This document shows positions 5,601 through 61,427 of a stretch of 64,000 bases of DNA, one piece after another. The DNA lies in assembly GCA_963965975.1 (NCBI GenBank), contig OZ014418.1:694501-758500 (forward strand), given 5' to 3'. A program made the position numbers and the translations under genes. How positions within the stretch are numbered: position 1 is the first letter of the stretch; each line of letters starts with the position of its first letter. The notes below the pieces were generated by a model. The model made no database searches. It saw only the letters and a program-made list of their open reading frames with translations, and was not told where the DNA came from. The DNA is from Xestospongia bergquistia (taxonomy: Eukaryota > Porifera > Demospongiae > Haplosclerida > Petrosiidae).

Positions 5601-6817
5601 GGTAAGTAAAATAGAAAATGTTATTACAGAAGCTGAAGGCAAATATCCAATTCTACTTCGAATTTCATATTCTGCTTTGAAGTTTCCGAAAATATTCAAT
5701 TCTAATTTACAGTTTTATCCTAAAATTCCAATTCTATTTTCTATCCTTCAATGGAATATTTAACAACTAAAATCCTATACCCCCACCCTAACTGGAAACA
5801 TATCCTTTCACTCCATTTTAAGAGACAGCTCATGGTACTCATGCTCCATACTTCAGTTCAGTGAGACTTCATTGAGCAATGGCAAATAGAATTGGATGTC
5901 TGTTATGACATATGTTTACAAAACTACAATTATTCTAAATAGAATTCAATTAACATTTTAATTATCATTAATATAAATTATTGTAGATCCAAGAATTAAC
6001 ACAAAATTGAAGAAGACAATGTCATTAGAAGTTAGTCAGTTAAAATCTACACAGAAAGGTGAGAACTTAACAGATATTATTAATATTTCATGCTCCTTCT
6101 ATTTATTGTCTTTTCTCATTATGTGCTCCTGTTGTTATATATAATTATTATGTTTTAAATCTAATATTAATATACATGTGCTGTACATGTGCTTTGTATT
6201 ATACAGAATTACAGAAGGAGCTACAATCATTACAAGAGATAATAACATCTCTTACTTTACAACTACGAGAGAAAGAGGAAAGAAATGTTCATTTAACAGA
6301 GAATATAAAAGGTATATTAACAACATGTATAGCTCTTTACTTTATCTATTGTAGATCTGAGGTCTAGGATATTAGAGGTAAGAGATCTCCTTAAAACTAG
6401 TCATCCAAAGCTAAGTCAAAAACTTGAAGAACCACTTGCTAGCAAACAAGAAGGTATATGTACACCTGTTCTTTATATAACTTATATACTCCTGTACATT
6501 CTTTATCACTTCATATTTCAGACATAGAAGCATATGAGTTGGTTGACAAGATGAAAACACTAGAGGACCTCACATCTACTGTCCAAGAAAGAGAAGGTAT
6601 TATATAACTATGTACAATATCTTATATTGTGTATTGTGTAGCTATTGACAGACAACAAGAGATTACAAAATTACAGGAGATGATTAGTTCACTAACTCTT
6701 CAATCGACAAAGAAAGATAGAATCATCACTCAGTTAACATCAAAAAATACAGATGAGGAGGACAGCCAAGAGGAATCATCAGATGATGAAGAAGTACCAA
6801 GTAAGCTGCCATTATAA
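2658..6817 (+). CDS. Death-domain/coiled-coil protein, copy 1
   Basis: The gene has eleven exons: 2658-2991, 3848-4916, 4963-5063, 5236-5298, 5346-5420, 5473-5601, 5987-6058, 6207-6311, 6355-6453, 6522-6596 and 6642-6817. They join in frame to 765 codons. Residues 1-111 form a helical domain shared with the kelch protein at 34,184. Residues about 112-220 contain a Death domain (AGHCLGLSTEKVRHI, then LLWAWKRKNGSGATSKELVKAF). Residues about 220-467 form a helical region I do not recognise. The rest is Glu/Lys-rich coiled coil made of small exons, ending in an acidic DEEDSQEESSDDEE tract. Death domains mediate homotypic signalling, so a scaffold or receptor role in innate immunity is an inference. 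The ATG at 2658 is chosen because the reading frame upstream is broken here. The last exon either reads to TAA at 6815-6817 or splices at 6801 (gtaagc, phase 1) to the LRR exon at 8471. Confidence 0.8.
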
Positions 6818-8357: not shown

Positions 8358-9042
8358 ATGGCGTCATCTTCTTCGTTAGGCCTTGACAATCGTATTTGAG
8401 CATGTTAGAGTGTGTGTATAACTATTGTTGTGTATGTAAAATATTATATAGTAACTATATTTTATTATAGGAGACACTGGAAGTGTTAAGTGGGAGAGTG
8501 ATAGAGTTATACTTACTTCATCTACTGTGGCAGAATGTAAAGAAGTGATACATCAATTAAAGAGACGACAACATACAACATGGTGGATTGAACTCTACAC
8601 ATTATCTCCTCAAAGTTTACTAACAGTATTAACTGATATTAATGAATGTAAAGTGAGGGAACTTGAGATATGGAACACTCATTTTGATAGTAACTGTATC
8701 AGTCAACTATCACAAGTAATAACTTATAACAAAACAATGGAGTACCTACGTCTTATCTCCTCACCTCTCTTACCAAATACTTACCAATTACTAACAACAG
8801 CTCTAACTAATAATACAATAATCAAGCTATTAGTCTTGTATTATGATCCTAACATTACTGATAATGATATACCACATTTCTCTCATTTAATCAATAATAA
8901 TAATACATTAGAATATCTATATCTCACTAACTGTACTAATATTACTAAATTTGGTATACAACAATTACAAAATGTTGTTGTTAATAATAATAGTTTGAAG
9001 GGTTTGTTTGTTAATGGTAATAGACTCCGTGATAATTATTAG
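8358..9042 (+). CDS. Leucine-rich-repeat gene or C-terminal LRR exon, copy 1
   Basis: The main exon (8471-9042, acceptor ttattatag) encodes about five to six repeats of the LxxLxL...N type. The strands are ELEIWN, YLRLIS, LLVLYY, YLYLTN and GLFVNG, separated by helix segments such as NCISQLSQVITYNKTM. Two gene models fit. In one, a small first exon (8358-8391, ATGGCGTCATC..., donor gtattt) joins in phase 1 to give a 201-residue protein with its own promoter. In the other, exon 11 of the Death/coiled-coil gene joins in phase 1 to give a 950-residue Death-coiled-coil-LRR protein. An AATAAA signal lies at 9083. Compared with copies 2 and 3, the helices are identical while the exposed strand residues differ, as expected of a recognition surface. 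Confidence 0.75.
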
Positions 9043-10629
9043 TTATTTTTGTACTATTGTTGTTATTGTATTTTTTAATGAAAATAAATTATTTTAAATT
9101 CAAATAAGTCAATTATTAATTAAATACTTTAGTTTCCAGTTCTTTGTCTTCTAAAAAAGTTAACAATTTTTATAATTCACTTCTTCTCTAGAAAAACTCA
9201 ACTTCTCTACTTGACAATTGACCACGCCTACATTAATTAATAATAAAAAGCTTCAATATTGTTATTTCTAATATTTACAAATACAATTATAACAAACAAA
9301 CTAGACTAAATTGTACATTAATAGTCCTCTAGTTAGTAGATATATAAAATTAAATATTATCGCTACGTCTAATACCACTAATTACTACTGCTAATAAAAA
9401 AATCCATTAATTAAAGCCAATTAATTTGACAAATCACTTAAAAACTTATTTCCTATACACAAAATTCACTTAACAAGTTGTTATATTTAATAACACGTTC
9501 TATTTAATAATATACTCACTTTTAACAATTCCATTAAAGTACTGATCCATACAACATCAGATGATTTCTTGATAACATTACAACTATTAACTTACTACTA
9601 AATAAACTTAGTTTATATTAACAGTAGTAGACTGTATCTAGTAGTTAGCAGTTTTGCTAGTTAGTTAATTTCTATCATTAGTAGTTTCTAGTAAAGAAGA
9701 CTTAAAGCAGTAAAGACTTAAGCAGCAAACTTTTTCTCACCGACAGCTGCTGGTTTCTCCAGCTGCTACTTTAATGGGTGTGGTCTGTAACTATGGAAAA
9801 ATGCAAACCCGCGAGTAAACATGGCGGTAAGAGTGGTGTTTTATTATTAAACAAACTACAGACTGAAGGAAGAGGAGGAGACAAAGGAATATTATATCAA
9901 TAGTTCATATGATGTCTGTTCTAGTCATAACATTGTACCACTGAATGCATTAAGACTGAAGACACTGCACAAAAAGAAAGATCACACAGAAATGTGATAG
10001 AAGGTAATGACTCTGTAGATTGTTTCACTGGTAAGTATATTAAATGTATATATACTACAAGAGATATCAATATACAGACCAAGAATTAACACATAATATG
10101 TCAATAATTTACCTTCTACTTTGTAGGACCATAGATATTAGAGTACTCTAATATCTATGGTAGGACACGTTTGAAAATGGACATTCTACCAACTGCTGGA
10201 TGGATTTGCTCCAGTTACATTAAAATTAAAATCAATCAAAATAAAGGAATGATTATAATTCCATTATTTTGTATTTTATGATGTCAGGTTCTATCATTGA
10301 AACTGTTCTTTATTAAAAAATGGAAAATTGGGTGAAGTCATCAAATCACTTGAAACTTTTTATGAAGTCAAAGTTATAGGTCCTTGTTAAGTGACATTAA
10401 TATCACTACTCTAAGATTTTGTGTTAATATATTAAAAATACTAAAGTGCTTCTTGTTTTACTAGTAATATGAACTCAATTGAATTTTTTTGAAGTTGTGA
10501 CTTTTTAAAGATACCTTAGCATAATTGAATTCAAATTTTTAAAGACAAGGACAAAATTTTTGAATCAAATATTCCTTTTTAAAATTTTATTGTTTTTCTA
10601 AACTAATAAGTAGTGGGAGTGGCTCAGAC
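9043..10629. other. AT-rich spacer, unit 1/2
   Basis: No convincing gene is visible. A possible first exon, ATGGCG followed by donor gtaaga (about 9821-9832), is conserved in all three spacers, with a short stretch encoding TEGRGGDKGILYQ before a stop about 45 bp later. This may be the relic of another gene's 5' end. The stretch ends with the 34-bp palindrome at 10,128 and a block shared with 860-1140 upstream of TSNAX. Confidence 0.5.
10128..10161. repeat. 34-bp perfect palindrome (copy in unit 2)
   Basis: The half-site ACCATAGATATTAGAGT is followed directly by its exact reverse complement, with no loop. The same 34 bp is at 21,092-21,125 in unit 3. The palindrome has survived without mismatch in both copies. 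It could be a dimeric protein-binding site, or the relic of paired transposon ends. Confidence 0.85.
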
Positions 10630-11513
10630 ATGGAGTCTTTATCAACAATTCTCCTGTTCACTGTAAGTAATACACTAACAAATATAATTAAATATAATTA
10701 CTGTTTGTCAGGAGTTTCAAAAGGAGTTAGATTTAAAATATGATAAATATGAACGCCTAGTAAAACTAAGTCGTGACACCACCATTTTCAGTAAGAGAAT
10801 CATCTTTCTTCTTCATCATGTCTCAGAGCAACAACATAAAAACAGTGATGTTCTAGTTGAAGCTCAAGAGAAACTGTCTACTGTTATAGAGCTCCTTCGT
10901 CAAATAGCATCTGAACTTACAAACGAGGACCCAGCAAAATTCTATAAATCATACATGCACTAATGGTGTCCAAGAATTTGTTGAAGCATTTTCTTTTTTT
11001 GTTTTCCTGAAAGAAGGTAGGTTGATATCTTTTATTGAGATGCAACAATGGTTGACGTTCTCAAAGAAAGAGTCAATTGAAGAACAAGAACAATCTAGAC
11101 AAGTAATAGAATATGGTGACAACTTTGACCAATCTAATATTCTTACCACTAACAATGAAGAGAAACAATTTGTCTTTCCTCTAACAGAATTAGAGTATGT
11201 TCTTGGTGTTGCTGATTTAACTGGTGAGCTAATGAGATTGACTGTCAATGCTGTTGGTAATGGTAACTGGACATTACCTTTCTCTATTCTTTGCTTCATT
11301 CGAAGCATCCAAAGATGTTATCAAAGTCTACGGCCCATCACACGAGAAATACCACGTAAATTGCAGACAATGAATGACAGTGTCTCTAAGATTGAACAAG
11401 TGTGTTATTCTATTAAAATTAGAGGTTCTGAACAACTTCCTAAACATATTTTACCAGTAGAGTCACAAACTCTTCAAGAAACAGAAGAATGGCCAGACAG
11501 CCATCAAATGTAA
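10630..11513 (+). pseudogene. TSNAX: TSNAX-like, copy 2, frameshifted
   Basis: Exon 1 (10,630-10,662) and the exon from 10,712 keep the same phase-0 structure as the intact copy. A 4-bp insertion (ATGC) near 10,955 changes the codons after KSY and gives an immediate stop. Downstream, the frame from about 11,022 to 11,513 still encodes the translin-fold C-terminus, including LGVADLTGELMR. The break sits at a different place from that in copy 1, so the copies decayed independently. Confidence 0.85.
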
Positions 11514-11756
11514 TCTATCAGTTATCTTGTGATGTCACGGGAAAAAATTGAAAATGATTGGTACTTTGTATTCATAACTGATAGTAACCTACATTGAAAA
11601 CAACATGTGATATTAAAATTGGTGTATTCCAACATGCTCTTTGTATAAAAAGGGAAGTTTTTGTATCTAAAATTATCATGAGATTACATCATTCAAAATA
11701 CCCTATAAATCTAAAAATAGTAACCATGTGGTAGAAATGTATTGCTACATAACCAA

Positions 11757-12480
11757 TTACATGAAGAAGTACCATTTAAGTTTAGTCTTTAAAAACTCAC
11801 ATTTAAATATTTCACTCCATTCCGTTTGAAGAGTACGAGAAGCTATAGCAAGACTACCTCCAATTCTGTTAAAAACAGTTAGAAATTTTGTACAATGATC
11901 TTGTACTTCTGAGAAGCTGTTCATAAAACGCATTGCTGAAACAAACTCTTGTACTATACTATCAAAAGTAGGTGACCGTCTAATAGCTTTATTAATGAGA
12001 CCAGCTTGAAATAACTGGTTTGCTAAACAGGTCATACAACTTTGTGACATGTCGTGTAAGTCAGCATAATGGTTGTTAATGCTTCTCTCAACAGTAATTC
12101 CTGGAAATAAAATACTTTAGTCATCTTTTACATATAATATCTCACCTTGTCTTACATGAAAATCAAATTGTACATGAGTTGTTTGGAGAGTATAGTATAG
12201 GGTTTGGTCCTCTGTTAAAGTAACAGTCTGCTGTGTCCTAGATTCAACTTCGTGAACAATTGTATCTCTCCCATCTAGTTCTTCATAAAGCTGTTCTCTT
12301 GGTTTTTGAAGCTTCCTCTTACAAGTGCAGTGTTGTTGTTCTTGTTTCAACTGATGTATTTGTTGTTTTAAATCTTGAATCTGTTGTTGAAGTGATTCTA
12401 GTGTCTCTTGATGAACCTGGTGTTTTGTTTCTAGTTTCATTTCTTGGCAACTTTGATGGTTTCTGTCTGGTTCTTGAACT
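11757..12480 (-). pseudogene. Kelch-gene 3' fragment, copy 2 (last two exons)
   Basis: This minus-strand piece keeps the last exon (helical domain, CMTCLANQLFQAGLINKAIR) and most of the coiled-coil exon (QQQIQDLKQQIHQLKQEQQ). Compared with the complete gene it has a 27-bp in-frame deletion at the start of the last exon. The kelch repeats are gone. Homology stops near 12,480, where sequence like 31,890 (the NUP98-like block) is joined on. The fragment has no start exon and is presumed dead. Confidence 0.8.
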
Positions 12481-12499
12481 TGAATTGGAGGGGTGATCT

Positions 12500-14760
12500 C
12501 TTTAGTGGACAGAGCTCAGGTAATCATTGGACTCAAAGGTAGAGTCATGGGAAGAGGAGAAGTTGGAACTGATAATACTGACATGTTCTCAGGTGGAATG
12601 TCTTCAACATGTAGGAACCTCTCCTGTTAGTTTTACTCAATGTAATATCTCTTGTAGTGTTGTTTTAGTAGTCATAAGGTTTTTTAGTTTTAGTATTAGT
12701 TATAGTATTAGTTATAGTATTAATGTGAAATTAAATTTAGTTATAGTATTAGTTATAGTATTAGTTATAGTCATGTTTAACAGTAGTTTTTAGTTGTTAT
12801 GTAGTTAGTTATTCAATTGTGTTTTATGCACATGCTCTTGGCTTACCAGGACCAGCTGTTATACTAGCTGTACCATGCTTTCTAGTTAAGCTTAACTATA
12901 ATAACTAGAAAATCACTCATGCATGGAAGGTTAAATGCACAAACAACTCAGCCATGCACTACCTAACATGATAATTATGCTAAACGCTTTACACATTCTA
13001 TGTGGTTAATAACTAATATAATTAAGGTAGTATTAGTTATAGTTCAAAGGAAAGTTTTAATTTTAGTTTAGTTATAGTTATAGTAACATTTGAAAAAAAT
13101 ATTAGTTATAGTTTTAGTTATAGTTAACTAAAATTTTTACACTCTACTAAAAATATTTTAGTATTAGTTATAGTTAACTAAAACAACACTAATCTCTTGT
13201 AATTTATTTATTCATCCATTATCTAGCCATGTATCTATTTTCTCTATCCATCCATATTTAGGTACCAATCGTAGATTGTTTTAATGTCAACCAAATGATA
13301 TGTTAGTTACAACTGGAGGTCTAGGATGGAAGTGGTCTTGGAAGTAGTGCTGGCATGTTTGATCAACCCTACAGAGGATCTGGACTGTTTGAATTTGTAA
13401 GTAATTTTGGGGGTGGAGTCAGAACTATCTCAAGTGGTCTAGCTGGAGGTAGTCTTAACTTTACATGAATGTACTACATTGGTGAATTATATTTGTTATA
13501 ATCTCTGATTGATTTAGAACAACCATATATATCTTATTAAAAGGTATATATTATGTTCTATGAACTATTGTTGTTATAAAATACATCTAATAGATGTATT
13601 GTATTTTCTCTTATTTCTGGCTATTGAGTTTTTGAATGTAAATGACAATACGATATTAAAGTGAGAACAATGAGTGGATCCAATGGAACTAGTCTATTTT
13701 CTGGCAGTGCTAAAGGAACATGTAATAAAGATTGTATATGTCATTTGTATATATTACACTGTTTGTGTAATATTGAAAGTAAAGTGAGAGACTTAGGTTA
13801 GTATACCTGACATAAATATTATTATTATATTCATTTATTGTTATTTTATTATATTGTTATATACTATTATTAATATTAACTGACAACATACATTATAAAC
13901 AATAAAGTTAATTAATTATTACTGTGTGTACTCCAACATGATTTTATAAGTAATAGAAGAATTAATTACAGTGACATCATTAACTATTACAACTGATAAA
14001 CTTAATATACTACTCCCAGAGTACTATAAGTTAAGTATGACTGTATTAATTAAAACATTAACCATCATAGCTTATATCAACTCTCCTATTTACAATGTTA
14101 GTTAGCCCCAGCAATTTAATACAACATTAACAATCTTAAGACCTTTTTACAATAGGTGGAATAGGAATGAACACAAGATTAGAGATGGGAATGAGGATAG
14201 GTACAGGAATGTTAATTAAGATGGGGCTAGGTGGTGAAACCCCTCAGGCCTTTTCTGTAAGTTATATTATTTGGTTTTTAAATTAGTATGAAGTATTGTA
14301 ATCATAAATTAATAGTAATAGTTATTAATCATTGTCAATTATCTATTTCTATAAATTATATTTCTATATTATAATAATTATGGTATAGTTTGTAACCATA
14401 GGAAATGATGTCATCATTAAATCTGGTCTATTGTTTATATTTATACTTCTCTCTATTGTATTACTACTGGTATGAGATAATATGAGAATAAAGGTTTAGA
14501 GGTAAGTAGAATGAATGGACAAATTAACAGATGAATGGATATATGTTATGAATTAATTGACATAATGTATTGATAACAAACAATATGAGGTAACAATTAC
14601 TAGATTATATTGGTATATTAAATGTATTATGTATGATTGTAGGAATTGAGATTTGAGGACTACTTATATAACAGACAATAGATATCTCTACAATAGAGAA
14701 CAAATAAAAAGGAGATTATACTCACAAGAGGAACAAAGGAGACGCTTTCACCTTTAACTA
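12500..14760 (+). pseudogene. NUP98: NUP98-like relic with GLFG exons and GLEBS motif
   Basis: The block contains disconnected open pieces: GRVMGRGEVGT-like Gly-rich sequence (about 12,540), SAGMFDQPYRGSGLFEF (about 13,346-13,395), NGTSLFSGSAKGT (about 13,681-13,720) and a Gly/Met-rich exon ending at the donor gtaagt (about 14,156-14,259). Near 14,455-14,501 an open piece reads CITTGMR, stop, YENKGLE, donor. About 140 bp later (14,643) comes ELRFEDYLYNRQ. Joined, this resembles the GLEBS (RAE1-binding) segment of NUP98, recalled as CITAMKEYESKSLE then ELRLEDYQANRK. The in-frame TAA and broken frames mark it as a pseudogene. Telling NUP98 from a paralogue needs a database search. Confidence 0.6.
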
Positions 14761-14970
14761 GTTTGAATTCTTATAATTAATATTAAATCTTATGATAATT
14801 CATTGTTATTATCACTAGCTGTTTTTTATATATGTATGTGTTTTTTTCACTTTCAGTGCTGTAGGTTTTTTGGTTAGCATGTAAAAATATCGTGTTTTAT
14901 ATTATTCATAGCTGTCAAAATAGGGTGAGCAATTCAATATTTACGAGCCCCACCCTTCTTTGTGACCACA

Positions 14971-17900
14971 ATGGATGACTCACTCGAAAGCTACAGGAAA
15001 GCCGTCATTGATACCTTTAATTCTCAATACGCCAACCTCAATTCAGCTCTACAAGGATGTATGACAGACTTTACCAAGGAAGCATTTGCCGCTAGTCTGA
15101 TAACTGACTCTGTTATGAGAAGTGAGAATTTTGCTGACATAGCTAACGAATTTAAAACTTTATTGAAGTTGAGGAAGACTGTAGAGGAAATACAGACACA
15201 TTGTCATTGTCTTGTTAGAATTCTTGAGGATCTTGGTGGACCAGCAGCAATTGTTGGTAGGAATCTTGCAGCAGAGCTGTCAACATTAACTGCACAGTAT
15301 TGTGGTATGTCATGTTAGAATGGAATAATTAAGTGTACCTTTAATTGGAGATTATGTTTAGGAATTAGGAACTTGTGTAAAAATTTTGAAAATTCCACTG
15401 TTATGGAACTAAACAAGGTTTAGTTATAATGTCATAGTTAACACTAGTATTATTTAGTCTCATTCCCAGACTGTATACCCCCTTGGGGAGACTTGCTTCA
15501 AATTCTTGGTCCTAGTGTCATTAGCATGATCTGAGTGATCATATGACCTTGAAAAAAAATGTGTGATTAGTATATAGAAGACTACCTTTTATCTGGTGCA
15601 TATGGCAGTCTAGGGATGAGATTATAAGTCAATTCTATTGTTATATTAACATTACTTTAATTAACACTGTATAAATTGATCTGTTAATTTTAACAACCAA
15701 CTAATAGTTTACATAAGTGGTTACGATGGAATCTATAATTAATATAAATTACTCATTTATTATATAATTTGTTGTTATGTTATTATAAAGTAACTAGTTA
15801 AAGTAATAATATTAATTTTCATAATGAACTTAACTTTCACATTTTAATTATCTATACTAATGAGAGTCACACAAACAGTTAAATAATCATCATATTATGA
15901 AATATTGATCAGTTTTAGTATCATTATAAATCATTTAAAGTACTGATATATTATCATGTTATACACTATATATTGTAATTAGGGTGTGTCTTAATGCTCA
16001 TGGTTTTTCCTTGTGAGATATTGACCCCACCCATTATTGTATAATGGTAGCTCTCATATAATTAGTAAATATGCTAATTTAAATAAGAATTATAATATTA
16101 TATTTAAGTATTACTTATATTATCTTTATTATTGTAATGTCTCTTTAATTACATTAGATCTTTCAAGTCTATTTAGTCAGTATGGTCTATCATATGAAGA
16201 AGTAGATAAAGAGTGTGATGATGGAGTTTTCATTGAGGTCTCACAACATATGAATGACGACTATATAACAGCTGGTCATTGTCTTGGTTTATCAACTGAA
16301 AAAGTGCGTCACATTTCACAAAGTGATAAAAATGATGTACAAAAGAAGAATGAGTTGTTGTGGACATGGAAAAGGAAAAATGGGAGTGGAGCTACTTCCA
16401 AAGAATTGGTGAAAGCTTTCTTGAAAATGGAAGATCGATTCATAGCTGAATCTATATTAAGATATCTTTCTAAGAAATTTAAATCAGATTTAAGTCCAAG
16501 TGCTTGCATTCTTAATCCACAAAAGGCTAAAAAGAATTGGGAAGAATTAACACCAAGTGAAAAGGAAGCAGTGCGAAATAAGCTGATGGATGAAAATCAT
16601 GATGTACGTAAAGCATACACTGTTTTTGTTGCCCAACTAGTACATTCTTTTAAAGAGCGCAAAGTGGACCCAATGGATATTCAGTGGGTTGCAAATAGCT
16701 TTGGTGCTTTAGAAAGCAGGCAAGAAAATACCACTGTCTTCAATTTTAGTAAAGATGACAGTATTGCTGCTGTTTTTTCAGAGTTAACCAGGTATTGTAC
16801 ATGGTTTAACTATGAGCTACTTCAGGTTATCCTTGATATTTTGGGCAACAATTGTGAGAAACAGTACTTAAAGTTATATGAAGAGGAGCATTTAATCCCA
16901 TACTTAACTCGCTCCATTTTTGACATACCATGTACTCCATTACAAGACTCTCAACTTACTAGTGTTCTTCTTAAAGTGTCTGCAGATCTTGTCATAACTG
17001 GAGGAGAAGTAAAAGCTATTCAACGTAACCTTGCCAAATTACTGGGTTTTCAAAGTAGTGCTATCTTACACTTCCATAATTACAATGAAGGTTGTATTGA
17101 ATTAGTATTTAGTCTTCCTACAGTAGTATTGGAGAATAGCTCTCCTAAATCCAAGCTGTTCACTTACATTGAATGGGACAAGTCAAGTCAATCTTACAAA
17201 GTTAATGTTGATCTAGCGACTGTATTGTAAGTATTAATTTAAATATATTCTCACTTTACGATCATATTTTAGATCATATTCTGAGAAACCAGAAGTATCT
17301 ATAATTGTTAAGTTGCTGCATGAAAAAGAGGATGCTCTTAATGAACTTTTAGAGAGAGAAAAGACAAAACAAAGTTAGTTATTGTATATATTCTGACTAA
17401 TACTACAGTGTGTTATCAATTACATACATAACTACTAGTTGGCCATCAACTCATCATATTATATTCTAAACTCTGTATGATTACTTTCACTGACAGCTAA
17501 TAATAATTAGTACTCACTGTATTATATGTGTATATTTTATTAGTACTAGGACACAGTATGGACAGAGAAGGACCACAAGATCAATCATCAACTGACACTT
17601 TATCAGGTACATGTAAATTAATGGAGATATAACTATGTACCTAATGTAAACAGAAAAGATGAAACTATCAGAGAAAATGAGTAAGGCAAAGACCTTAGAG
17701 ATAGAGGAGTTAACCAGACATAAAGAAGGTGAGCTATAATACTGATAGTAGTACATACCATATATGGTTATGTTCTATAGTTACTAATAAAGTGTTAATA
17801 GAGAAACAAGAAAAGATTGAGGCATTACAAATGGAAATAAAATCACTAAATATAGAAGTAATGGAGAGAGAAGAAAGTGGAATCAGTCAGTTAATGGAGA

Positions 17901-19098
17901 AGATTAAAGGTAAGTAAAATATAAAATGTCATTACGGAAGTTGAAGGCAAACATCCAATCTACTTCATAATTTCATATTCTGCTTTGAAGTTTTCCGAAA
18001 ATATTCAATTCTAATTTACAGTTTTATCCTAAAATTCCAATTCTATTTTCTATCCTTCAATGGAATATTTAACAAATAAAATCCTATACCCCATCCTAAC
18101 TGGAAACATATCCTTTCACTCCATTTTAAGAGACAGCTCATAGTGCTTGCACTCTGTGCTTCAATTCAGTGAGACTTCATTGAGCAATGGAAAAAAGAAT
18201 TCAGCTTACCTATGTTATGACATATATTTACAAAACTACAATTATTCTAAATAGAATTCAATTAACATTTTAATTATCATTAATATAAATTATTGTAGAT
18301 CCAAGAATTATTGACATAAAATTGAAGAAGACATTAGAAGTTAGTCAGTTAAAATCTAAACAGAAAGGTGAGAACTTAGCAGATATTATTAACATTTATT
18401 GTCTTTTCTCATTATATGCTCCTGTTATTATATATAATTATTATGTTTTAAATCTATACATGTCTGTACATGTGCTTTGTATTATATAGAATTACAGAAG
18501 GAGCTACAATCATTACAAGAGATAACAACGTCTCTTACTTTACAACTAAGAGAGAAAGAGGAAAGAAATGTTCGTTTAACAGAGAACATAAAAGGTATAT
18601 TAACAACATGTATAGCTCTTTACTTTATCTATTGTAGATCTGAGGTCTAGGATATTAGAGGTGAGAGATCTCCTTAAAACTAGTCATCCAAAGCTAAGTC
18701 AAAAACTTGAGGAACCACTCACTAGCAAACAAGAAGGTATATGTACACCTGTTCTTTATATAACTTATCTACTCCTGTACATTCTTTATCACTTCATATT
18801 TCAGACATAGAAGCATATGAGTTGGTTGACAAGATGAAAACACTAGAGGACCTCACATCTACTGTCCAAGAAAGAGAAGGTATTATATAACTACTCAAAA
18901 TGTACAACATCTTATATTGTGTATTGTGTAGCTACTGACAGACAAAAAGAGATTACAAAATTACAGGAGATGATTAGTTCACTAACTCTTCAATTGACAG
19001 AGAACGATAAAATCATTACTCAGTTAACATCAAAAAATACAGAAAGCCAAGAGGAATCATCAGATGATGAAGAACTACCAAGTAAGCTGTTATTATAA
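14971..19098 (+). CDS. Death-domain/coiled-coil protein, copy 2
   Basis: The exon plan and phases are those of copy 1. The first exons are 14,971-15,304, 16,158-17,226 and 17,273-17,373, followed by eight small phase-1 exons up to 19,081 (or the stop at 19,096-19,098). Every exon I translated is open. The protein starts MDDSLESYRKAVIDTFNSQY. Its second exon carries the same Death domain and unrecognised helical region, and the coiled coil ends in an acidic ESQEESSDDEELP tract. Upstream sequence differs from copies 1 and 3: it begins after the NUP98-like relic, so this copy has a different promoter region. An alternative GTG start nine bases upstream is less likely. Confidence 0.8.
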
Positions 19099-19445
19099 CT
19101 TTAGTAATATTTAAAACATGTCATTAAACTACAATGTATATATGGTACAGTATGTAGTGGTTTGTAGCACACTCTTATAACATATGATAACTTTAAAATT
19201 TCACATGCAACAACAGTATGTAAAGTTTATTACATGAAGATACAAGTCTATTTCATTAGTTGCTTTCATCATCACTACCTGCTGTCAATATTGAGTAAGA
19301 ACATTGTTGTTATAGTAACCTAACACTAGTAATGGCATCATCTTCTTTGTTAGGCCTTGACAATTTATATTTGAGCATGTTAGAGTGTGTGTATAACTAT
19401 TGTTGTGTGTGTAAAATATTATATAGTAACTATGTTTTATTATAG

Positions 19446-20008
19446 GAGACATTGGAAGTGTTAAGTGGACTAATGATAGTGTTATACTTACTTCATCTAC
19501 TGTGGCAGAATGTAAAGAAGTGATACATCAATTAAAGAGACGACGACACACAACATGGAGGATTGTACTCAACAGATTATCTCCTCAAAGCTTACTAACA
19601 GTATTAACTGATATTAATGAATGTAAAGTGTGGAGACTTGATATACATAACACTCATTTTGATAGTAACTGTATCAGTCAACTATTACAAGTAATAACTT
19701 ATAACAAAACAATGGAGGGACTACGTCTTTACTCCTCACCTCTCTTACCAAATACTTACCAATTACTAACAACAGCTCTAACTAACAATACAATAATCAA
19801 GGTAATAGTCTTGTGGCATGATCCTACCATTACTGATAATGATATACCACATTTCTCTCATTTAATCAATAATAATAATACATTAGAAGAACTATATCTC
19901 GCTGACTGTACTAATATTACTAAATTTGGTATACAACAATTACAAAATGTTGTTGTTAATAATAATAGTTTGAAGGGTTTGTATGTTAATGGTAATACAC
20001 TCCGTTAA
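19446..20008 (+). CDS. Leucine-rich-repeat exon, copy 2
   Basis: The exon starts after acceptor attatag and encodes the same repeats as copy 1, but the strand residues differ: RLDIHN, GLRLYS, VIVLWH, ELYLAD and GLYVNG. A start codon resembling the MASSSS first exon is present at 19,332, but its splice donor is changed (cgtattt to ttatattt). A stand-alone model is therefore weaker here, and joining to the Death/coiled-coil exon ending at 19,081 (phase 1, intron of 364 bp) is easier than in the other units. Confidence 0.75.
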
Positions 20009-21377
20009 TTATTAGTTATTTTTGTACTATTGTTATTGTATTTTTTAATAAAAATAAATTATTTTAAATTCCAATAAGTCAATTATTAATTAAATACTTT
20101 AGTTTCCAGTTCTTTGTCTTCTAAAAAAGTTAACAATTTTTATAATTCACTTCTCTAAAAAACTCTACTTCTCTACTTGACAATTGACCACGCCTACATT
20201 AATTAATAATAAAAAGCTTCAATATTGTTATTTCTAATATTTACAAATACAATTATAACAAACAAACTAGACTAAATTGTACATTAATAGTCCTCTAGTT
20301 AGTAGCTATATAAAATTAAATATTATCACTACGTCTAATACCATTAATTAATACTGCTAATAAAAAATCCATTAATTAAAGCCACTTAATTTGTCAAATC
20401 ACTTAAAAACTTATTTCCTACACACAAAATTCACTTAACAAGTTGTTATATTTAATAACACGTTCTATTTAATAATACACTCACTTTTAACAATTCCGTT
20501 AAAGTACTGATCCATACAACATCAGATGATTTCTTGATAACATTACAACTATTAACTTACTACTAAATAAACTTAGTTTATATTAACAGTAGTAGACTGT
20601 ATCTAGTAGTTAGCAGTTTTGCTAGTTAGTTATCTTCTATCATTAGTAGTTTCTAGTAAAGAAGACTTAAAGCAGTAAAGACTTAAACAGCAAACTTTTT
20701 CTCACCGACAGCTGCTGGTTTCTCCAGCTGCTACTTTAATGGGTGTGGTTTGTAACTATGGAAAAATGCAAACCGCGAATAAACATGGCGGTAAGAGTGA
20801 TGTTTTATCATTAAACAAACTACAGACTGAAGGAAGAGGAGGAGACAAAGGAATATTATATCAATAGTTCATATGATGTCTGTTCTAGTCATAACATTGT
20901 ACCACTGAATGCATTAAGACTGAAATCACTGCACAAAAAGAAAGATCACACAGAATTGTTATAGAAGGTAATGACTCTGTAGATTGTTTCACTGGTAAGT
21001 ATATTAAATGTATATATACTACAAGAGATATCAATATACAGACCAAGAATTAACACATAATGTGTCAATAATTTACCTTCTACTTTGTAGGACCATAGAT
21101 ATTAGAGTACTCTAATATCTATGGTAGGACATGTTTGAAAATGGACATTCTACAACTGCTGGATGGATTTGCTCCAGTTACATTAAAATTAAAATCAATC
21201 AAAATAAAGGAATGATTATAATTCCATTATTTTGTATTTTATGATGTCAGGTTCTATCATTGAAACTGTTCTTTATTAAATAATGGAAAATTGGGTGAAG
21301 TCATCAAATCACTTGAAACTTTTTATGAAGTCAAAGTTATAGGTCCTTGTTAAGTGACATTAATATCACTACTCTAA
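20009..21377. other. AT-rich spacer, unit 2/3
   Basis: This closely copies 9043-10,410, including an AATAAA after the LRR stop, the conserved ATGGCG/gtaaga site near 20,785 and the 34-bp palindrome at 21,092-21,125. I see no intact gene. Confidence 0.6.
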
Positions 21378-22050
21378 AAACAGTGATGTTCTAGTTGAAG
21401 CTCAAGAGAAACTGTCTACTGTTATAGAGCTCCTTCGTCAAATAGCATCTGAACTTACAAACAAGGACCCAGCAAAATTCTATAAATTATACACTAATGG
21501 TGTCCAAGAATTTGTTGAAGCATTTTCTTTTTTTGTTTTCCTGAAAGAAGGTAGGTTGATATCTTTTATTGAGATGCAACAATGGTTGACGTTCTCAAAG
21601 AAAGAGTCAATTGAAGAACAAGAACAATCTAGACAAGTAATAGAATATGGTGACAACTTTGACCAATCAAATATTCTTACCACTAACAATGAAGAGAAAC
21701 AATTTGTCTTTCCTCTAACAGAATTAGAGTATGTTCTTGGTGTTGCTGATTTAACTGGTGAGCTAATGAGATTGACTGTCAATGCTGTTGGTAATGGTAA
21801 CTGGACATTACCTTTCTCTATTCTTTGCTTCATTTGAAGCATCCAAAGATGTTATCAAAGTCTACGGCCCATCACACGAGACATACCACGTAAATTACAG
21901 ACAATGAATGACAGTGTCTCTAAGATTGAACAAGTGTGTTATTCTATTAAAATTAGAGGTTCTGAACAACTTCCTAAACATATTTATTTACTATCAGAGT
22001 CACAAACTCTTCAAGAAACAGAAGAATGGCCAGACAGCCATCAAATGTAA
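21378..22050 (+). pseudogene. TSNAX: TSNAX-like, copy 3, 5'-deleted with a stop codon
   Basis: A deletion joins the upstream spacer directly to codons for [11 protein letters not shown]. Exon 1, its intron and the [11 protein letters not shown] segment are missing. In the remaining frame a CGA codon (Arg in the other copies) is TGA at 21,835, in the segment CFIRSIQRC. Near 21,985 the LPKHILPVES region is also altered. This is the most damaged of the four copies. Confidence 0.9.
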
Positions 22051-22219
22051 TCCATCAGTTATCTTGTGATGTCATGGGAAAAAATTAAAAACGATTGGTA
22101 TTTTGTATTCATAACTGATAGTAACCTACATTGAAAACAACATGTGATATTAAAATTGGTGCATTCCAACATGCTCTTTGTAAGCTTCTGTATCTAAAAT
22201 TATCATGAGATTACATCAT

Positions 22220-22437
22220 TCAAAATACCCTATAAATCTAAAAATAGTAACCATGTGGTAGAAATGTATTGCTACATAACCAATTACATGAAGAAGTAAC
22301 CATTTAAGGTTAGTCTTTAAAAACTCACATTTAAATATTTCACTCCATTCTGTTTGAAGAGTACGAGAAGCTACAGCAAGACTACCTCCAATTCTGTTAA
22401 AAACAGTTAGAAAATTTGTACAATGATCTTGTACTTG
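22220..22437 (-). pseudogene. Kelch-gene 3' fragment, copy 3
   Basis: The piece is the same truncated tail as at 2210-2437, with the same breakpoint after gtactt. Units 1 and 3 are therefore more closely related to each other here than to unit 2. It encodes only the end of the shared helical domain on the minus strand. Confidence 0.75.
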
Positions 22438-22665
22438 AATAAAGTCAATTAAAATAGAAGAATGACTACACTAGATGTAATCACTTACTTTTGAGTTTGT
22501 TTACTACACAAGACATCACTTGCTTTTTAATTTTACTTGCTTTTTACTTTTGAGTTTCTTACAGATGTAATTATTAATTGTTACTCCGCCTACTGTTTAT
22601 TTAGTTGCTATGAATATATAATATCCCATTCCTGTGGAAACATTCCTGTCTTTAGCCACTTTTCA

Positions 22666-25600
22666 ATGGATGACTCACTCGAAAACTACAGGAAAGCCGT
22701 TATTGATACCTTTAATTCTCAATATGCCAAGCTCAGTTCAGCTCTACGAGGATGTATGACAAAATTTACTGAGGAAGCATTTGCTGTTAAGCTGATATCT
22801 GAGTCTGTTATGAGAAGTGAGAATTTTGCTGACATAGCTAACGAATTTAAAACTGTATTGAAGTTGAGGAAGACTGTAGAGGAAATACAGAAACATTGTC
22901 ATTGTCTTGTTAGAATTCTTGAGGATCTTGGTGGACCAGCAGCAATTGTTGGTAGTAATCTTGCTACAGAGCTGTCAACATTAACTGCACAGTATCGTGG
23001 TATGTCATGTTAGAATGGAATAATTAAGTGTACCTTTAATTGGAGATCATGTTTAGGAATTAGGAACTTGTGCAAAAATTTTGAAAATTCCATTGTTATG
23101 GAACTAAACAAGCTTTAGTTATAATGCCATAGTTAACACTAGTATTATTTAGTCTCATTCCCAGACTGTATACCCCCTTGGGGAGACTTGCTTCAAATTC
23201 TTGGTCCTAGTGTCATTAGCATGATCTGAGTCATCATATGACCTTGAAAAAAAATGTGTGATTAGTATATAGAAGACTACCTTTTATCTGGTGCATATGG
23301 CAGTCTAGGGATGAGATTATAAGTCAATTCTATTATTATATTAACATTACTTTAATTAACACTGTAAAAATTGATCTGTTTATTTTAACAACCAACTAAT
23401 AGTTTACATAAGTGGTTACTATGGAATCTATAATTAATATAAATTACTCATTTATTATATAATTTGTTGTTATGTTATTATAAAGTAACTAGTTAAAGTA
23501 ATAATATTAATTTTCATAATGTTCATGAACTTAACTTTCACATTTTAATTATCTATACTAATGAGAGTCACACAAAGAGTTAAATAATCATCATATTATG
23601 AGATATTAATCAGTTCTAGTATCATTATAAATCATTTAAAGTACTGATATATTATCATGTTATACACTATATATTGTAATTAGGGTGTGTCTTAATGCTC
23701 ATGGTTTTTCCTTGTGAGATATTGACCCCACCCATTATTGTATAATGGTAGCTCTCATATAATTAGTAAATATGCTAATTTAAATAAGAATTATATATTT
23801 AAGTATTACTTATATTATCTTTATTATTGTAATGTCTCTTTAATTACATTAGATCTTTCCAGTCTATTCAGTCAGTATGGTCTATCATATGAAGAAGTAG
23901 ATAAAGAGTGTGATGATGGAGTTTTCATTGAGGTCTCACAACATATGAATGATGACTATATAACAGCTGGTCATTGTCTTGGTTTATCAACTGAAAAAGT
24001 GCGTCACATTTCACAAAATGATAAAAGTGATGTACAAAAGAAGAATGAGTTGTTGTGGGCATGGAAAAGAAAAAATGGGAGTAGAGCTACTTCCAAAGAA
24101 TTGGTGAAAGCTTTCTTGAAAATGGAAGATCGATTCATAGCTGAATCTATATTAAGATATCTTTCTAAGAAATTTAAATCAGATTTAAGTCAAAGTGGTT
24201 GTATTCTTAATCCACAAAAGGCTAAAAAGAATTGGGAAGAATTAACACCAAGTGAAAAGGAAGCAGTGCGAAATAAGCTGATGGATGAAAATCATGATGT
24301 ACGTAAAGCGTACACTGTTTTTGTTGCCCAACTAGTACATTCTTTTAAAGAGTGCAAAGTGGACCCAATGGATATTCAGTGGGTTGCAAATAGCTTTGGT
24401 GCTTTAGAAAGCAGGCAAGAAAATACCACTGTCTTCAATTTTAGTAAAGATGACAGTATTGCTGCTGTTTTTTCAGAGTTAACCAGGTATTGTACATGGT
24501 TTAACTATGAGCCACTTCAAGTTATCCTTGATATTTTGGGCAACAATTGTGAGAAACAGTACTTAAAGTTATATAAAGAGGAGCATCTCATCCCATACTT
24601 AACTCACTCCATTTTTGACATACCATGTACTCCATTACAAGACTCTCAACTTACTAGTGTTCTTCTTAAAGTGTCTGCAGATCTTGTCATAACTGGAGGA
24701 GAAGTAAAAGCTATTCAACGTAACCTTGCCAAATTACTGGGTTTTCAAAGTAGTGCTATCTTACACTTCCGTAATTACAATGAAGGTTGTATTGAATTAG
24801 TATTTAGTCTTCCTACGGTAGTATTGGAGAATAGCTCTCCTAAATCCAAGCTGTTCACTTACATTGAATGGGACAAGTCAAGTCAATCTTACAAAGTTAA
24901 TGTTGATCTAGCGACTGTATTGTAAGTATTATTTTAAATATATTCTCAATTTATGATCATATTTTAGATCATATTCTGAGAAACCAGAAGTATCTTTACT
25001 TGTTAAGTTGCTGCATGAGAAAGAGGATGTTCTTAACGAACTTTTAGAGAGAGAAAAGACAAAACAATGTTAGTTATTTTATATGTATATATTCTGACTG
25101 ATACTACATTGTGTTATCAATTACATACATAACTACTAGTTGGCCATCAAGTCATCATGTTATATTCTAAACTCACTTTCACTGACAGCTAATGATAATA
25201 ATCATCACTGTATTATATGTGTATATTTTATTAGTACTAGGACACAGTATGGACAGAGAAGGATCACAAGATCAATCATCAACTGACACTTTATCAGGTA
25301 CATGTACATTAATGGAGATATAACTATGTACCTAATGTAAACAGAGAAGCTGAAACTATCAGAGAAAATGAGTAAGGCAAAGACCTTAGAGATAGAGGAG
25401 TTAACCAGACATAAAGAAGGTGAGCTAAAATACTGTTAGTAGTACATACCATATATGGTTATGTTCTATAGCTACTGATAAAGTGTTAGTAGAGAAACAA
25501 GAAAAGATTGAGGCATTACAAATGGAACTAAAATCACTAAATGTAGAAGTAATGGAGAGAGAAGAAAGTGGAATCAGTCAGTTAATGGAGAAGATTAAAG

Positions 25601-26832
25601 GTAAGTAAAATAGAAAATGTTATTACGGAAGCTGAAGGCAGACATCCAATTCTACTTTGTAATATCATATTCTGCTTTGAAGTTTTCCAAAAATATTCAA
25701 TTCTACTTTACAGTTTTATCATAAAATTCCATTCTATCCTTCAATGGAATATTTAACAACTAAAATCCTATACCCCACCCTAACTGGAAACATGTCACTT
25801 CACTCCATTCTAAGAGACAGCTCATGGTGTTTGCACTCTGCGCTTCAGTTCAGTGAGACTTCATTGAGCAATGGAAAATAGAATTGGAATTAGATGTCTG
25901 CCTTCAGCTTACCTATGTTATGAAATATATTTACAAAACTACAATTATTCTAAATAGAATTCAATTAACATTTTAATTATCATTAATATAAATTATTGTA
26001 GATCCAAGAATTATTGACATAAAATTGAAGAAGACAATGTCATTAGAAGTCAGTCAGTTAAAATCTACACAGAAAGGTGAGAACTTAGCAGATATTATTA
26101 ACATTTCATGTTCCTTCCATTTATTGTCTTTTCTCATTATGTGCTCCTGTTATTATATATAATTATTATGTTTAAATCTAATATTAATATACATGTGCTG
26201 TACATGTGCTTTGTATTATATAGAATTACAGAAGGAACTACAATCATTACAAGAGATAACAACGTCTCTTACTTTACAACTACGAGAGAAAGAGGAAAGA
26301 AATGTTCATTTAACAGAGAACATAAAAGGTATATTAACAACATGTATAGCTCTTTACTTTATCTATTGTAGATCTGAGGTCTAGGATATTAGAGGTGAGA
26401 GATCTCCTTAAAATTAGTCATCCACTTCTAAGTCAAAAACTTGAGGAACCACTTGCTAGCAAACAAGAAGGTATATGTACACCTGTTCTTTATATAACTT
26501 ATCTACTCCTGTACATTCTTTATCACTTCATATTTCAGACATAGAAGCATATGAGTTGGTTGACAAGATGAAAACACTAGAGGACCTCACATCTACTGTC
26601 CAAGAAAGAGAAGGTATTATATAATTACACAAAATGTACAACATCTTATATTGTGTATTGTATAGCTACTGACAGACAACAAGAGATAACAAAATTACAG
26701 GAGATGATTAGTTCACTAACTCTTCAATTGACAGAGAAAGATAAAATCATTACTCAGTTAACATCAAAAGATACAGAAAGCCAAGAGGAATCATCAGATG
26801 ATGAAGAACTACCAAGTAAGCTGTTATCATAA
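22666..26832 (+). CDS. Death-domain/coiled-coil protein, copy 3
   Basis: Exons 22,666-22,999, 23,853-24,921 and 24,968-25,068 are followed by eight small exons ending at 26,815 (donor gtaagc) or at the stop 26,830-26,832. All translated exons are open and phases match copy 1. The reading frame is also open upstream to 22,537, but the homologous frame in copy 1 is broken by a 1-bp difference, so the ATG at 22,666 (MDDSLENYRKAV) is preferred. Few substitutions separate the Death domain and helical region from the other copies, in contrast to the LRR exon. Confidence 0.8.
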
Positions 26833-27207
26833 CTTTAGTAATATTTAAAACATGTCATTAAACTACAATGTATATATGGTACAGTATGTAGTGGTTTGTA
26901 GCACACTCTTATAACATATGATAACTCATTAATTTCACATACAACAACTGTATGTGAAATTTATTACATCAAGTCTATTTCATTAGTTCCTTTCATCATC
27001 ACTACCTGTTGTCAATATTGAGTAAGAATGAGTAATGGATTCATCATTGATGACTCAGTAACATAAAAATACAACTATCAAATATTTCTCACTAATCTAT
27101 AATAGATCTCTATGACAATATCTGTCATAATAGTACTTACACATGTACCAATTAATGTAGTCCAAGTTATTGTTTATTTCAAGATACTTTCACAGCTTGA
27201 GTATAAT

Positions 27208-27420
27208 GTTATATTTTTGCAGTTGAGTGACTTCGCAAAAATTGGACTCGCGAATAATTACACACGATACTCATCCATCGTGTTGCTGCACGAGGATACC
27301 GAATATCTAAATATTCGCGAAGTCAAATTTTCGCGGTTGACACAAAACGCAAAATTATGAGTTCAGGAAAATTTTATATGCGAAAGTTTGAGCCGCGAAA
27401 ATTTTGACATTTACGGTATA
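27208..27420. mobile_element. Unit-3-specific insertion, MITE-like, rich in CGCGAA/TTCGCG
   Basis: Flanks match unit 1 (left at 7202, right at about 7545), but the middle is unrelated. The insert carries several copies of CGCGAA and TTCGCG in both orientations in an otherwise CpG-poor region, and it ends in TTTACGGTATA. I see no transposase or clean terminal inverted repeats, so a short non-autonomous element is the best description. About 340 bp of the unit-1 sequence is missing at this site. Confidence 0.55.
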
Positions 27421-28240
27421 TGATACTATGTAGTGAATAATATTATAACTATGTCCATACATGTACTGACATGATGTATAGTACATGTAATACAGTGGAA
27501 ATATTGGAGAGAATAAAATTTAAAGCTTACAATGTATTATGTAGAAGTTGTAGACTACAATAATCACTAACATGATCAAAGTAATTCCTCACCAATATTT
27601 TCAGTTATATGTATACATGTACTATCATGTATGATGAAAAGATAAGAAAAGCCAAAAAATGGAGAAAAGACTAACTACCAGAAGAATAGTAAACTTGAAC
27701 TAATATGAAAATACTGTTATGATATCTATGAGTTAACTGTTCATTAGATGACATAGAGAAATGATGTCACTACAGCTTCAATGTTGATAGGATTGTTTCC
27801 AATAAATTATATATTTTTTCAAAAACATTAAAGTACATTATAGATGACATAACTTACATTACAATATGATATCACAATACTAAATATAATGTTTTATTAG
27901 ATTATGACATTTGTAAAGGAAAAGAGAAATGTTAATCAGTTGATATAAACACGACAAGTCAAACAAAACTTTGTTACCATGGTGATAATTCATCCTTGAG
28001 CGTTGTTTCTTAATTGTGAATCATCTTGATTAGTGATATGATTGAGTCATCCTCAATGACAGCTATATGACAGTTCATTATCTTGTGTGTTCGTCTCAAT
28101 AGTAGATAGTTATGTGCCCATTCTTAGCTCAGATCTTCTAATACAGTAAATTATTAGTATAACACTCAGTAAATTTAACTCCGTTTTTGTAGAATCCGTT
28201 CATCTCCGTACATTGTTGTTATAGTAACCTAACACTAGTA

Positions 28241-28916
28241 ATGGCGTCATCTTCTTCGTTAGGCCTTGACAATCGTATTTGAGCATGTTAGAGTGTGTGT
28301 ATAACTATTGTTGTGTGTGTAAAATATTATATAGTAACTATATTTTATTATAGGAGATACTGGAAGTGTTAAGTGGTACAGTGATGGTGTTACACTTACT
28401 TCATCTACTGTGGCAGAATGTAAAGAAGTGATACATCAATTAAAGAGACAACAACATACAACATGGTGGATTGTACTCGACAGATTATCTCCTCAAAGTT
28501 TACTAACAGTATTAACTGATATTAATGAATGTCAAGTGAGGATACTTGATATAGAGAACACTCATTTTGATAGTAACTGTATCAGTCAACTATTACAAGT
28601 AATAACTTATAACAAAACAATGAAGTACCTACGTCTTTTCTCCTCACCTCTCTTACCAAATACTTACCAATTACTAACAACAGCTCTAACTAACAATACA
28701 ATAATCAAGGTATTATACTTGTATAATGATCCTAACATTACTGATAATGATATACCACATCTCTCTCATTTAATTAATAATAATAATACATTACAATCAC
28801 TAGATCTCTATAAATGTACTAATATTACTAAATTTGGTATACAACAATTACAAAATGTTGTTGTTAATAATAATAGTTTGAAGAGATTGTTTGTTAATGG
28901 TAATAAACTCCGTTAA
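28241..28916 (+). CDS. Leucine-rich-repeat gene or C-terminal LRR exon, copy 3
   Basis: A small exon 28,241-28,274 (ATGGCGTCATC..., donor gtattt) and the main exon 28,354-28,916 join in phase 1, as in copy 1. The variable strands read ILDIEN, YLRLFS, VLYLYN, SLDLYK and RLFVNG. The helices and turns (SSPLLPNTYQLLTTALTNN, CTNITKFGIQQLQNVVVNN) are identical to the other copies. Joining to the Death/coiled-coil exon at 26,815 is equally possible by phase. Confidence 0.75.

Positions 28917-43006: not shown

Positions 43007-44990
<1,984 letters not shown>

Positions 44991-50598: not shown

Positions 50599-61427
<10,829 letters not shown>

Follow-up and report, generated by a model that had tools for sequence, protein, structure and literature searches.

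Death-domain and LRR exons at the locus

The window, that is, the whole stretch of 64,000 nucleotides of sponge DNA analysed here, carries three LRR exons, each preceded by a death-domain exon, together with smaller elements between and behind them. All lie on the forward strand.

3832..4917 (+): death-domain exon 5' of LRR copy 1 (PF00531; exon ends approximate)
4961..6800 (+): small charged exons between death domain and LRR, a putative coiled coil (by-eye reading, predicted splicing)
8358..8391 (+): short ATG block 5' of the LRR exon, which could serve as an alternative first exon (donor in phase 1)
8471..9042 (+): LRR copy 1, terminal exon (phase-1 acceptor; stop TAG; AlphaFold model)
9043..9700 (+): LRR cassette 3' flank, common to ten C8 copies (mean divergence 1.7%)
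16142..17227 (+): death-domain exon 5' of LRR copy 2 (protein 98% identical)
19446..20008 (+): LRR copy 2, terminal exon (stop TAA)
23837..24922 (+): death-domain exon 5' of LRR copy 3 (protein 97% identical)
28354..28916 (+): LRR copy 3, terminal exon (stop TAA)

The three LRR exons are open throughout, with an AG acceptor on the 5' side and a stop at the end, and AATAAA occurs at 9083-9088 within the 3' flank of copy 1. The five strand strings quoted for these exons in a preliminary description of the locus are exact, as is the multi-base codon difference it gave as an example, codon 68 reading TGG, CAT and GAG in the three copies. Its further statement that introns and spacers are near-identical holds for the 3' spacer (mean divergence 1.7% over ~610 bases among ten C8 copies) and fails for copy 2 upstream of about -140, where 54 of 205 bases differ from copy 1. 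The short ATG exon might point to a separate promoter; its donor is absent in copy 2, and the simple pattern recurs in 27 of the 64 copies with enough upstream sequence. A sponge origin is supported indirectly by an exon that carries Ser in place of the catalytic Cys, the silicatein motif.

The PF00531 match in the open frame 3721-4917 has an E value of 1e-10 and is followed, within the same exon, by ~240 aa without any Pfam family above cut-off. The death-domain exons of four C8 genes are conserved (dS 0.035, dN 0.013, dN/dS 0.36). PF00531 was also matched at L095 (E 9.3e-7) and L041 (E 5.5e-5), and a Pfam scan with E up to 0.01 found no death domain in the C4 gene L094. Exon phases from death domain to LRR are compatible by eye, and one LRR cassette stands 3' of two different death-domain modules, in 6/10 and 4/10 C8 copies respectively. 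Of 110 death-domain matches, the first 38 were compared with the LRR places: one lies 2.3-6.7 kb downstream in 21 cases and none does in the other 17, in a count that ignores LRR strand and draws on an incomplete LRR list. We infer that the death-domain and LRR exons are joined in one gene, which would then run from a death domain through an unknown domain and a coiled coil to the LRR.

The LRR exon is modelled by AlphaFold as a ribonuclease-inhibitor-type LRR (pLDDT 92), alternating strand and helix in repeats of ~28 residues, with strands at 12-16, 38-43, 62-68, 92-96, 120-124, 149-153 and 178-181. Its profile matches ribonuclease inhibitor and NLRP14, with 4peq at E 1.6e-8. The C8 genes thus carry the C-terminal ribonuclease-inhibitor-type LRR of bona fide NLRs, and they are nevertheless not bona fide NLRs, because NACHT (PF05729), with 95 matches in the genome, has none on C8, which holds the window (six-frame search; 103 of 156 candidates scored). 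Likewise, the C8 LRR genes fall outside the VLR definition, because LRRNT and LRRCT caps gave no Pfam match in the four LRR exons scanned.

Replacement and silent change in the LRR exons

The LRR exon family occupies at least 250 genomic places. The codon alignment covers 62 of the 250 known places and 11 C4-family copies from one assembly, and rates are Nei-Gojobori estimates and minimum-step counts. Left out were L076 (in-frame stop, removed before codon alignment), L001-L008 (first LRR_8 search), L079-L082, and L009-L018 as duplicates of window copies and L039-L045. L029, L036, L074 and L077, which lie within three concave codons of another copy, were excluded from the association, codon-sharing and between-cluster distance analyses and retained in the site-variation, minimum-step, run and pairwise-saturation counts.

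Among the three window exons, amino-acid-variable codons comprise 22 of 30 concave positions and 4 of 8 in the N-cap strand, against 2 of 72 in helices, 1 of 18 core L positions and 6 of 59 in other loops. The preliminary description had called helices and turns identical, which is nearly but not wholly so; its placing of the variation in the strands agrees with these counts. Variability is also seen in the N-cap strand (codons 9-14) and at codon 185, neither of which it had listed. In the LRR exons, concave dN is 0.44 and dS 0.068, with 0.031 and 0.038 for the rest of the exon. Across ten C8 copies 26/30 concave and 10/72 helix codons vary (Fisher p 3e-12), with 17 of 18 core positions fixed and one variable. 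High-entropy concave sites are 20% Tyr (1.6% elsewhere), followed by Asp, Arg, Ser and Glu, with Trp at 4.9%.

Measured against silent and flanking change, a comparison that the preliminary description had proposed, the excess is large. The 30 concave codons of the ten C8 copies took at least 76.5 replacement steps in 72 sites (1.07/site), and the corresponding values are 0.026 for the core and 0.059 for helices; silent steps elsewhere in the exon number 8 in 101 sites (0.079/site) and 3' flank steps 41 in 614 (0.067/site). Concave replacement therefore exceeds the neutral rate 13- to 16-fold as a lower bound (Poisson p 2e-61, steps treated as independent), and neither equal rates nor an even spread over the exon describes these data. 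The C4 family, ~40% identical to the C8 family, varies on the same concave face: its 11 copies show 1.14 replacement steps/site there, 0.022 in the core, and 0.089 replacement and 0.093 silent steps/site in the rest. Because the pattern is seen in two families of such limited identity and maps onto a confident model, strong diversifying selection on the predicted ligand-facing LRR surface, as originally proposed, is supported. A near-identical scaffold combined with variation over most of the presumed ligand face is characteristic of recognition systems under very strong diversifying selection.

Silent change is itself somewhat raised at concave codons: 0.19 vs 0.079/site in C8 and 0.41 vs 0.093/site in C4 by minimum steps, and 0.183 vs 0.083 as pairwise dS in the C3 copies (n=27). 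This may be path averaging over multi-step codons. Individual pairs are instructive. Between W3 and L042 only 4 of 822 bases in the flanks have changed, yet their concave codons are separated by 24 replacements and no silent change; outside these, the exon differs at 16 bases in 157 codons (3 silent), and its being more divergent than the flanks means that flank likeness understates exon age. The pairs L025/L036 and L073/L074, with flanks 1.6% and 2.1% apart, show no concave change, and therefore the process is not uniform.

Origin of the concave codons

Concave codon states are widely shared. Of 101 states in C8, 89 are also present in 48 other copies, including copies on other chromosomes, and over the 71 that are derived, codons match at 0.911, a level reached in 0/5000 simulations of nearest-mutation re-derivation (expectation 0.776), a simple null that ignores mutational bias. 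At codon 9, for example, Tyr is TAC in 4/4 C8 and 8/8 other copies, and Thr is ACT in 4/4 C8 and 27/29 other copies. Nearly irrespective of silent distance, the concave codons have reached saturation: 62 copies give 1891 pairs, of which 1885 differ at 12 or more concave codons, one differs at 9 and 5 differ at three or fewer, while the range 4-8 is empty. A Mantel comparison of concave and flank distance (r 0.14, p 0.27) is not informative alone.

The most serious competitor to our reading holds that new point mutations were repeatedly fixed in each copy by very strong positive selection, with no exchange. The 13- to 16-fold excess, the absence of block structure in C8 and the finding that all 7 steps confined to third positions are replacements would each suit it. 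However, it does not sit well with codon matching across clusters above re-derivation, with the near lack of intermediate pairs, or with the two young pairs that show no concave change, and we consider it rather improbable, though to be taken seriously.

Taken as a whole, the data are in our judgement best explained, with a probability of roughly 0.6, by death-domain LRR receptors in which an old codon pool is held under diversifying selection and reassorted on a fine scale. The genes would probably encode intracellular recognition receptors built of a death domain, the ~240-aa unknown domain, a coiled coil and a ribonuclease-inhibitor-type LRR, the last being one terminal exon inside a cassette of ~1.5-1.7 kb found behind at least two death-domain modules. 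Their concave face is probably the binding surface for a variety of non-self or self/non-self ligands, with signalling left to the death domain. Many codon states per concave position would be maintained by diversifying selection; these would predate the present C8 copies, be common to clusters on different chromosomes, and be reassorted a few codons at a time, through gene conversion or allelic recombination, alongside homogenisation of scaffold and flanks. A bolder version, which we regard as speculative and probably wrong, sees the hundreds of death-domain LRR receptors in the germ line as a combinatorial codon library: each concave position of a homogenised scaffold would be drawn nearly independently from its own small old alphabet by a dedicated codon-scale exchange, perhaps within individuals, and would serve anticipatory recognition or allorecognition in an antibody- or VLR-like manner, with neither NACHT nor rearrangement.

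Targeted mutation, in which hypermutation or template mutagenesis writes the strand codons in germ line or soma, might account for saturation at small neutral distance, independent assortment of neighbouring C8 codons, mostly fixed third bases and the somewhat higher concave silent rates. A blind mutator, however, is expected to leave many silent changes; blind hypermutation is disfavoured because these are few in the same concave codons (76.5 replacement vs 3.5 silent minimum steps in C8, and none of the seven third-only steps silent), and targeted mutation as a class appears quite unlikely. Adenine-template mutagenesis of the diversity-generating-retroelement kind, with NNY-type codons, was rejected: TGG, GAG, AAG and AGA are common, and 13 of 80 minimum steps fall at third positions.

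The preliminary description had also entertained the copying of variable cassettes. Exchange in large units, either the entire LRR cassette or blocks of repeat size in the manner of lamprey VLR assembly, would agree with the copying of a whole cassette between two gene contexts and with a slight run excess in 52 other copies (p 0.03 from 60 permutations, with near-duplicates kept in). The ten C8 copies, however, are not enriched in identical runs (p 0.91), and their surface codons show no association, within strands either (n=10, little power), so that this suggestion is not borne out and its probability is very low. In 48 other copies, association is stronger within than between strands (p 0.005). 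With only 5 C8-diagnostic markers, exchange tracts are bounded solely at strand 5 (<=30 nt) and strand 4 (<=70 nt). Reassortment of old variants at codon scale accounts for the data better than block cassette copying. Relaxed constraint, or pseudogenes, could draw on the stops flagged within the match at 25 of 250 places (at least two of which, L042 and L053, are merely terminal), but a core fixed at 17/18 positions, near-neutral helices, replacement far above silent change at concave codons and C4 variation on the same face make it scarcely credible, and pseudogene drift is rejected on site pattern for the C8 and C4 sets.

Significance and known systems

Sponges tell symbionts, food and other individuals apart, and are not known to possess adaptive receptors. 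A NACHT-free family with at least 250 places and a ligand face at least 13-fold above neutral in ten C8 copies is thus a concrete candidate for sponge recognition, and its concave residues are directly testable targets. It also poses a mechanistic puzzle, in that concave codons are saturated and unlinked, yet scaffold, flanks and death domain are nearly unchanged.

Lamprey VLRs, which are assembled somatically from modules and bear LRRNT and LRRCT caps, likewise carry their diversity on concave LRR strands; the sponge genes differ in being germline, with a single LRR exon and no caps found in the four exons scanned. Among sponges, large NACHT-defined NLR families with death-fold domains and LRRs are described for Amphimedon (Yuen et al. 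2014, cited in PMC4986451) and Dysidea avara (PMC12909245). The available text of the latter describes no death domain-coiled coil-LRR family comparable to that on C8, and the words 'selection' and 'coiled' are absent from its main text. Zebrafish NLR-B30.2 genes, as described in PMC4852459, form clusters of hundreds in which positive selection and gene conversion act unlike on signalling and recognition exons; there, however, the recognition module is B30.2 and NACHT is present. Fungal NLR/HET genes are described as having conserved repeats with exposed sites under diversifying selection, concerted evolution and exchange between members, and they resemble the sponge family in placing different N-terminal domains on one recognition module, but they use WD, ANK and TPR repeats with NOD and no LRR, and reshuffle repeats, which is not seen in the sponge family (PMC4986451). 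In plant hvNLRs, variability is highest at the exposed positions of LxxLxLxx, with exposed aromatics, and the defining threshold is at least 10 positions at >=1.5 bits among alleles of one clade across ecotypes (Prigozhin and Krasileva, PMC8226289). Unlike these, the sponge genes carry a death domain and coiled-coil-like exons, and NACHT was not found with the NACHT profile. The likeness lies in the exposed positions, which vary in both; 16 positions of the exon reach >=1.5 bits among ten C8 copies, although these are paralogues and the plant sequences are alleles.

LRR exons and their gene setting

The window, C8:694501-758500 of a 146.46 Mb genome assembly, holds three LRR exons, each closing its gene within tandem units of about 9-11 kb; each begins after a phase-1 AG acceptor and has a coding length of about 187-190 residues. 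AlphaFold models of the three copies (pLDDT 92, pTM 0.89) place strands at residues 6-8, 12-16, 38-43, 62-68, 92-96, 120-124, 149-153 and 178-181 with helices in between, and LRR profile matches are to ribonuclease inhibitor (4peq, E 1.6e-8) and also to NLRP14. Repeated Translin-family exons accompany the tandem units. Features of the window are as follows.

1292-2029, Translin-family exon (PF01997, E 4e-43)
8358-8391, ATGGCGTC-containing block that carries a phase-1 donor, about 110 bases upstream of the LRR exon
8471-9042, forward strand, LRR exon, copy 1
10908-11513, Translin-family exon, by DNA likeness to the first
19446-20008, forward strand, LRR exon, copy 2
21364-21837, Translin-family exon, by DNA likeness to the first
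28354-28916, forward strand, LRR exon, copy 3
33195-34016, Translin-family exon, by DNA likeness to the first
44262-44672, neighbour resembling what we take to be a YY1-like zinc-finger exon
47285-48895, neighbour presumably resembling a BTB-like protein
51986-53267, long tandem repeat with several open frames on both strands (EEGQKEGQ-type reading)
59742-60122, GA-rich microsatellite with an (RE)n reading frame

Genome searches gave 150 matches to the LRR exon protein (best 150 of 419 candidates scored) and 146 to a query from a second family on contig C4 (best 144 of 462 scored), which pool to at least 250 distinct places when those less than 900 bases apart are merged; as scoring was confined to the best candidates, this figure is a minimum. 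A stop inside the match was flagged in 25 of the 250, and in at least two of these (L042 and L053) it is the terminal stop only. Ten close copies, including those of the window, lie on contig C8 at 441-878 kb.

Upstream of the LRR exon stands a death-domain exon (PF00531, E 1e-10), followed by small charged exons. This first module precedes the LRR cassette in six of the ten C8 copies (the three of the window, L039, L042 and L043), and the identical cassette type lies behind a different module in the other four (L040, L041, L044 and L045); L041, the one of these run through Pfam, has a death domain (5.5e-5), and L044 was assigned by its later exons, its death-domain exon lying outside the stretch examined. 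The ten-copy alignment fades past about -300 and +1240 relative to the exon start. A death domain is present too in a C3 gene (L095, 9.3e-7), and in a C4 gene (L094) the N-terminal exons matched no Pfam family at 0.01. Across the genome, an LRR place lies 2.3-6.7 kb downstream of 21 of the first 38 death-domain matches (of 110). NACHT is frequent, with at least 95 matches, none of the 95 listed being on C8; on C2 at 8.8-9.15 Mb NACHT matches cluster with distant death-domain matches interspersed, and these are likely true death-domain NLRs. The ATGGCGTC-type block recurs at the corresponding position in the majority of C8 copies, in many on C3 and in the single C4 copy inspected, its phase-1 donor being gone from the second copy of the window. 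The block may represent a first exon, either old or alternative, whose product would be an LRR-only protein.

The preliminary description had assigned the DNA to a sponge. A silicatein sequence used as query found one genomic exon reading CGCSYAFAAVGALEG, which we liken to the silicatein motif, with Ser at the position of the catalytic Cys of cysteine cathepsins; the two longest matches were ordinary cathepsins (CGSCWAF). The Ser-for-Cys exon favours a siliceous sponge and falls short of proof.

Replacement on the concave face

The 30 concave positions are x2, x3, x5, x7 and x8 of LxxLxLxx in six strands, a class that is a motif definition and non-blind, since it was fixed before the per-class counts yet after the aligned variation had been seen. 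The preliminary description held that the copies differ almost only at exposed strand residues, and codon-level rates among the ten C8 copies bear this out: concave dN is 0.426 and dS 0.053, against 0.032 and 0.026 in the remainder of the exon. The minimum steps joining the codons observed at each site, a lower bound uninflated by shuffling inside the set, number 76.5 replacement (N) over 72 sites and 3.5 silent (S) over 18 on the concave face. Replacement steps elsewhere are 1 in the core, 10 over 169 sites in helices, 17 over 138 in loops and 14 over 18 in the N-cap strand; silent steps outside the concave and N-cap classes are 8 over 101 sites, and the 3' flank has 41 changes over 614. The concave replacement excess is thus 13-16 fold. 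Concave silent steps, at 0.19 per site, run about 2.4 times the silent rate in other exon parts, which we take as path averaging over multi-step codons; third-position-only steps there are silent in 0 of 7. The roughly 600 bases 3' of the stop (9043-9700 in copy 1) diverge by 1.7% among the ten copies, below exon silent sites, and copies sharing this near-identical flank occupy two different gene contexts.

The same face is variable in eleven C4 copies, about 40% identical to the window family, with 95 replacement (1.14 per site) and 9 silent (0.41 per site) minimum concave steps, 0.022 in the core, and 0.089 N and 0.093 S in the remainder. The 52 other copies, of which C3 holds 42, give a concave dN of 0.53 and dS of 0.26, with 0.117 and 0.161 in the remainder, a weaker contrast because silent change is larger in those copies; in the C3 cluster at 10.3-11.3 Mb (27 copies) the values are 0.51 and 0.183, and 0.082 and 0.083. 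Death-domain exons of four C8 genes are conserved (dS 0.035, dN 0.013). The variation is therefore a property of the LRR surface, not of the whole locus.

Origin of the diversity

The diversity would best be explained by an old pool of codons held under diversifying selection and reassorted at fine scale through a putative exchange step, the remainder of the gene being homogenised. Copies elsewhere, 48 in number, share 89 of the 101 C8 concave codon states. Over 71 derived states the synonymous codon agrees at 0.911; nearest-mutation re-derivation predicts 0.776 and attained the observed value in 0 of 5000 simulations. In the remainder of the exon, dS is 0.136 between C8 and the 48 copies against about 0.026 inside C8, and the concave codon states therefore look older than the C8 backbones.

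Transfer of surface codons as blocks, the copying of variable cassettes that the preliminary description gave as one alternative, finds no support in the ten C8 copies, in which identical runs are not in excess (p 0.91) and no association of surface codons was found within or between strands; runs are slightly over expectation in the 52 others (p 0.03; 60 permutations, near-duplicates included). In 48 of the others codon association is stronger within strands than between them (p 0.005), as expected under short exchange tracts.

New mutation alone is argued against by that codon sharing, by saturation among the 62 aligned copies (at least 12 concave codons differ in 1885 of 1891 pairs, three or fewer in 5, 4-8 in none and 9 in 1, so that intermediates are almost absent) and by the absence of concave change in two young pairs whose flanks diverge by 1.6% and 2.1%. 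Between window copy 3 and L042, 24 concave replacements stand against flanks that differ at 4 of 822 bases; the exon of this pair is older than the flanks imply, because the remaining 157 codons differ at 16 bases. Contrary to nearly all pairs, L025, L029 and L036 (C3, 10.59-10.70 Mb) are near-identical with 0-2 concave differences, as are L073 and L074 (C1, 9.68 and 9.82 Mb); some members are thus currently non-diversifying or very recently copied.

Proposed function and known systems

Concave residues are 20% Tyr, followed by Asp, Arg, Ser, Glu and Asn, with Trp at 4.9%, the composition of a putative binding site. The death domain, the coiled-coil-like exons and the lack of NACHT suggest, as a function predicted from sequence, an intracellular sensor that would signal by clustering and whose targets may be microbes, symbionts or other sponges. 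The open-access titles and abstract beginnings surveyed mention no such NACHT-free death-domain LRR family in sponges, and an earlier account for Amphimedon (Yuen et al. 2014) is possible. The systems for comparison are the NLRs of the sponge Dysidea avara (PMC12909245), fungal NLR/HET proteins (PMC4986451), zebrafish NLR-B30.2 proteins (PMC4852459) and plant hvNLRs (PMC8226289).
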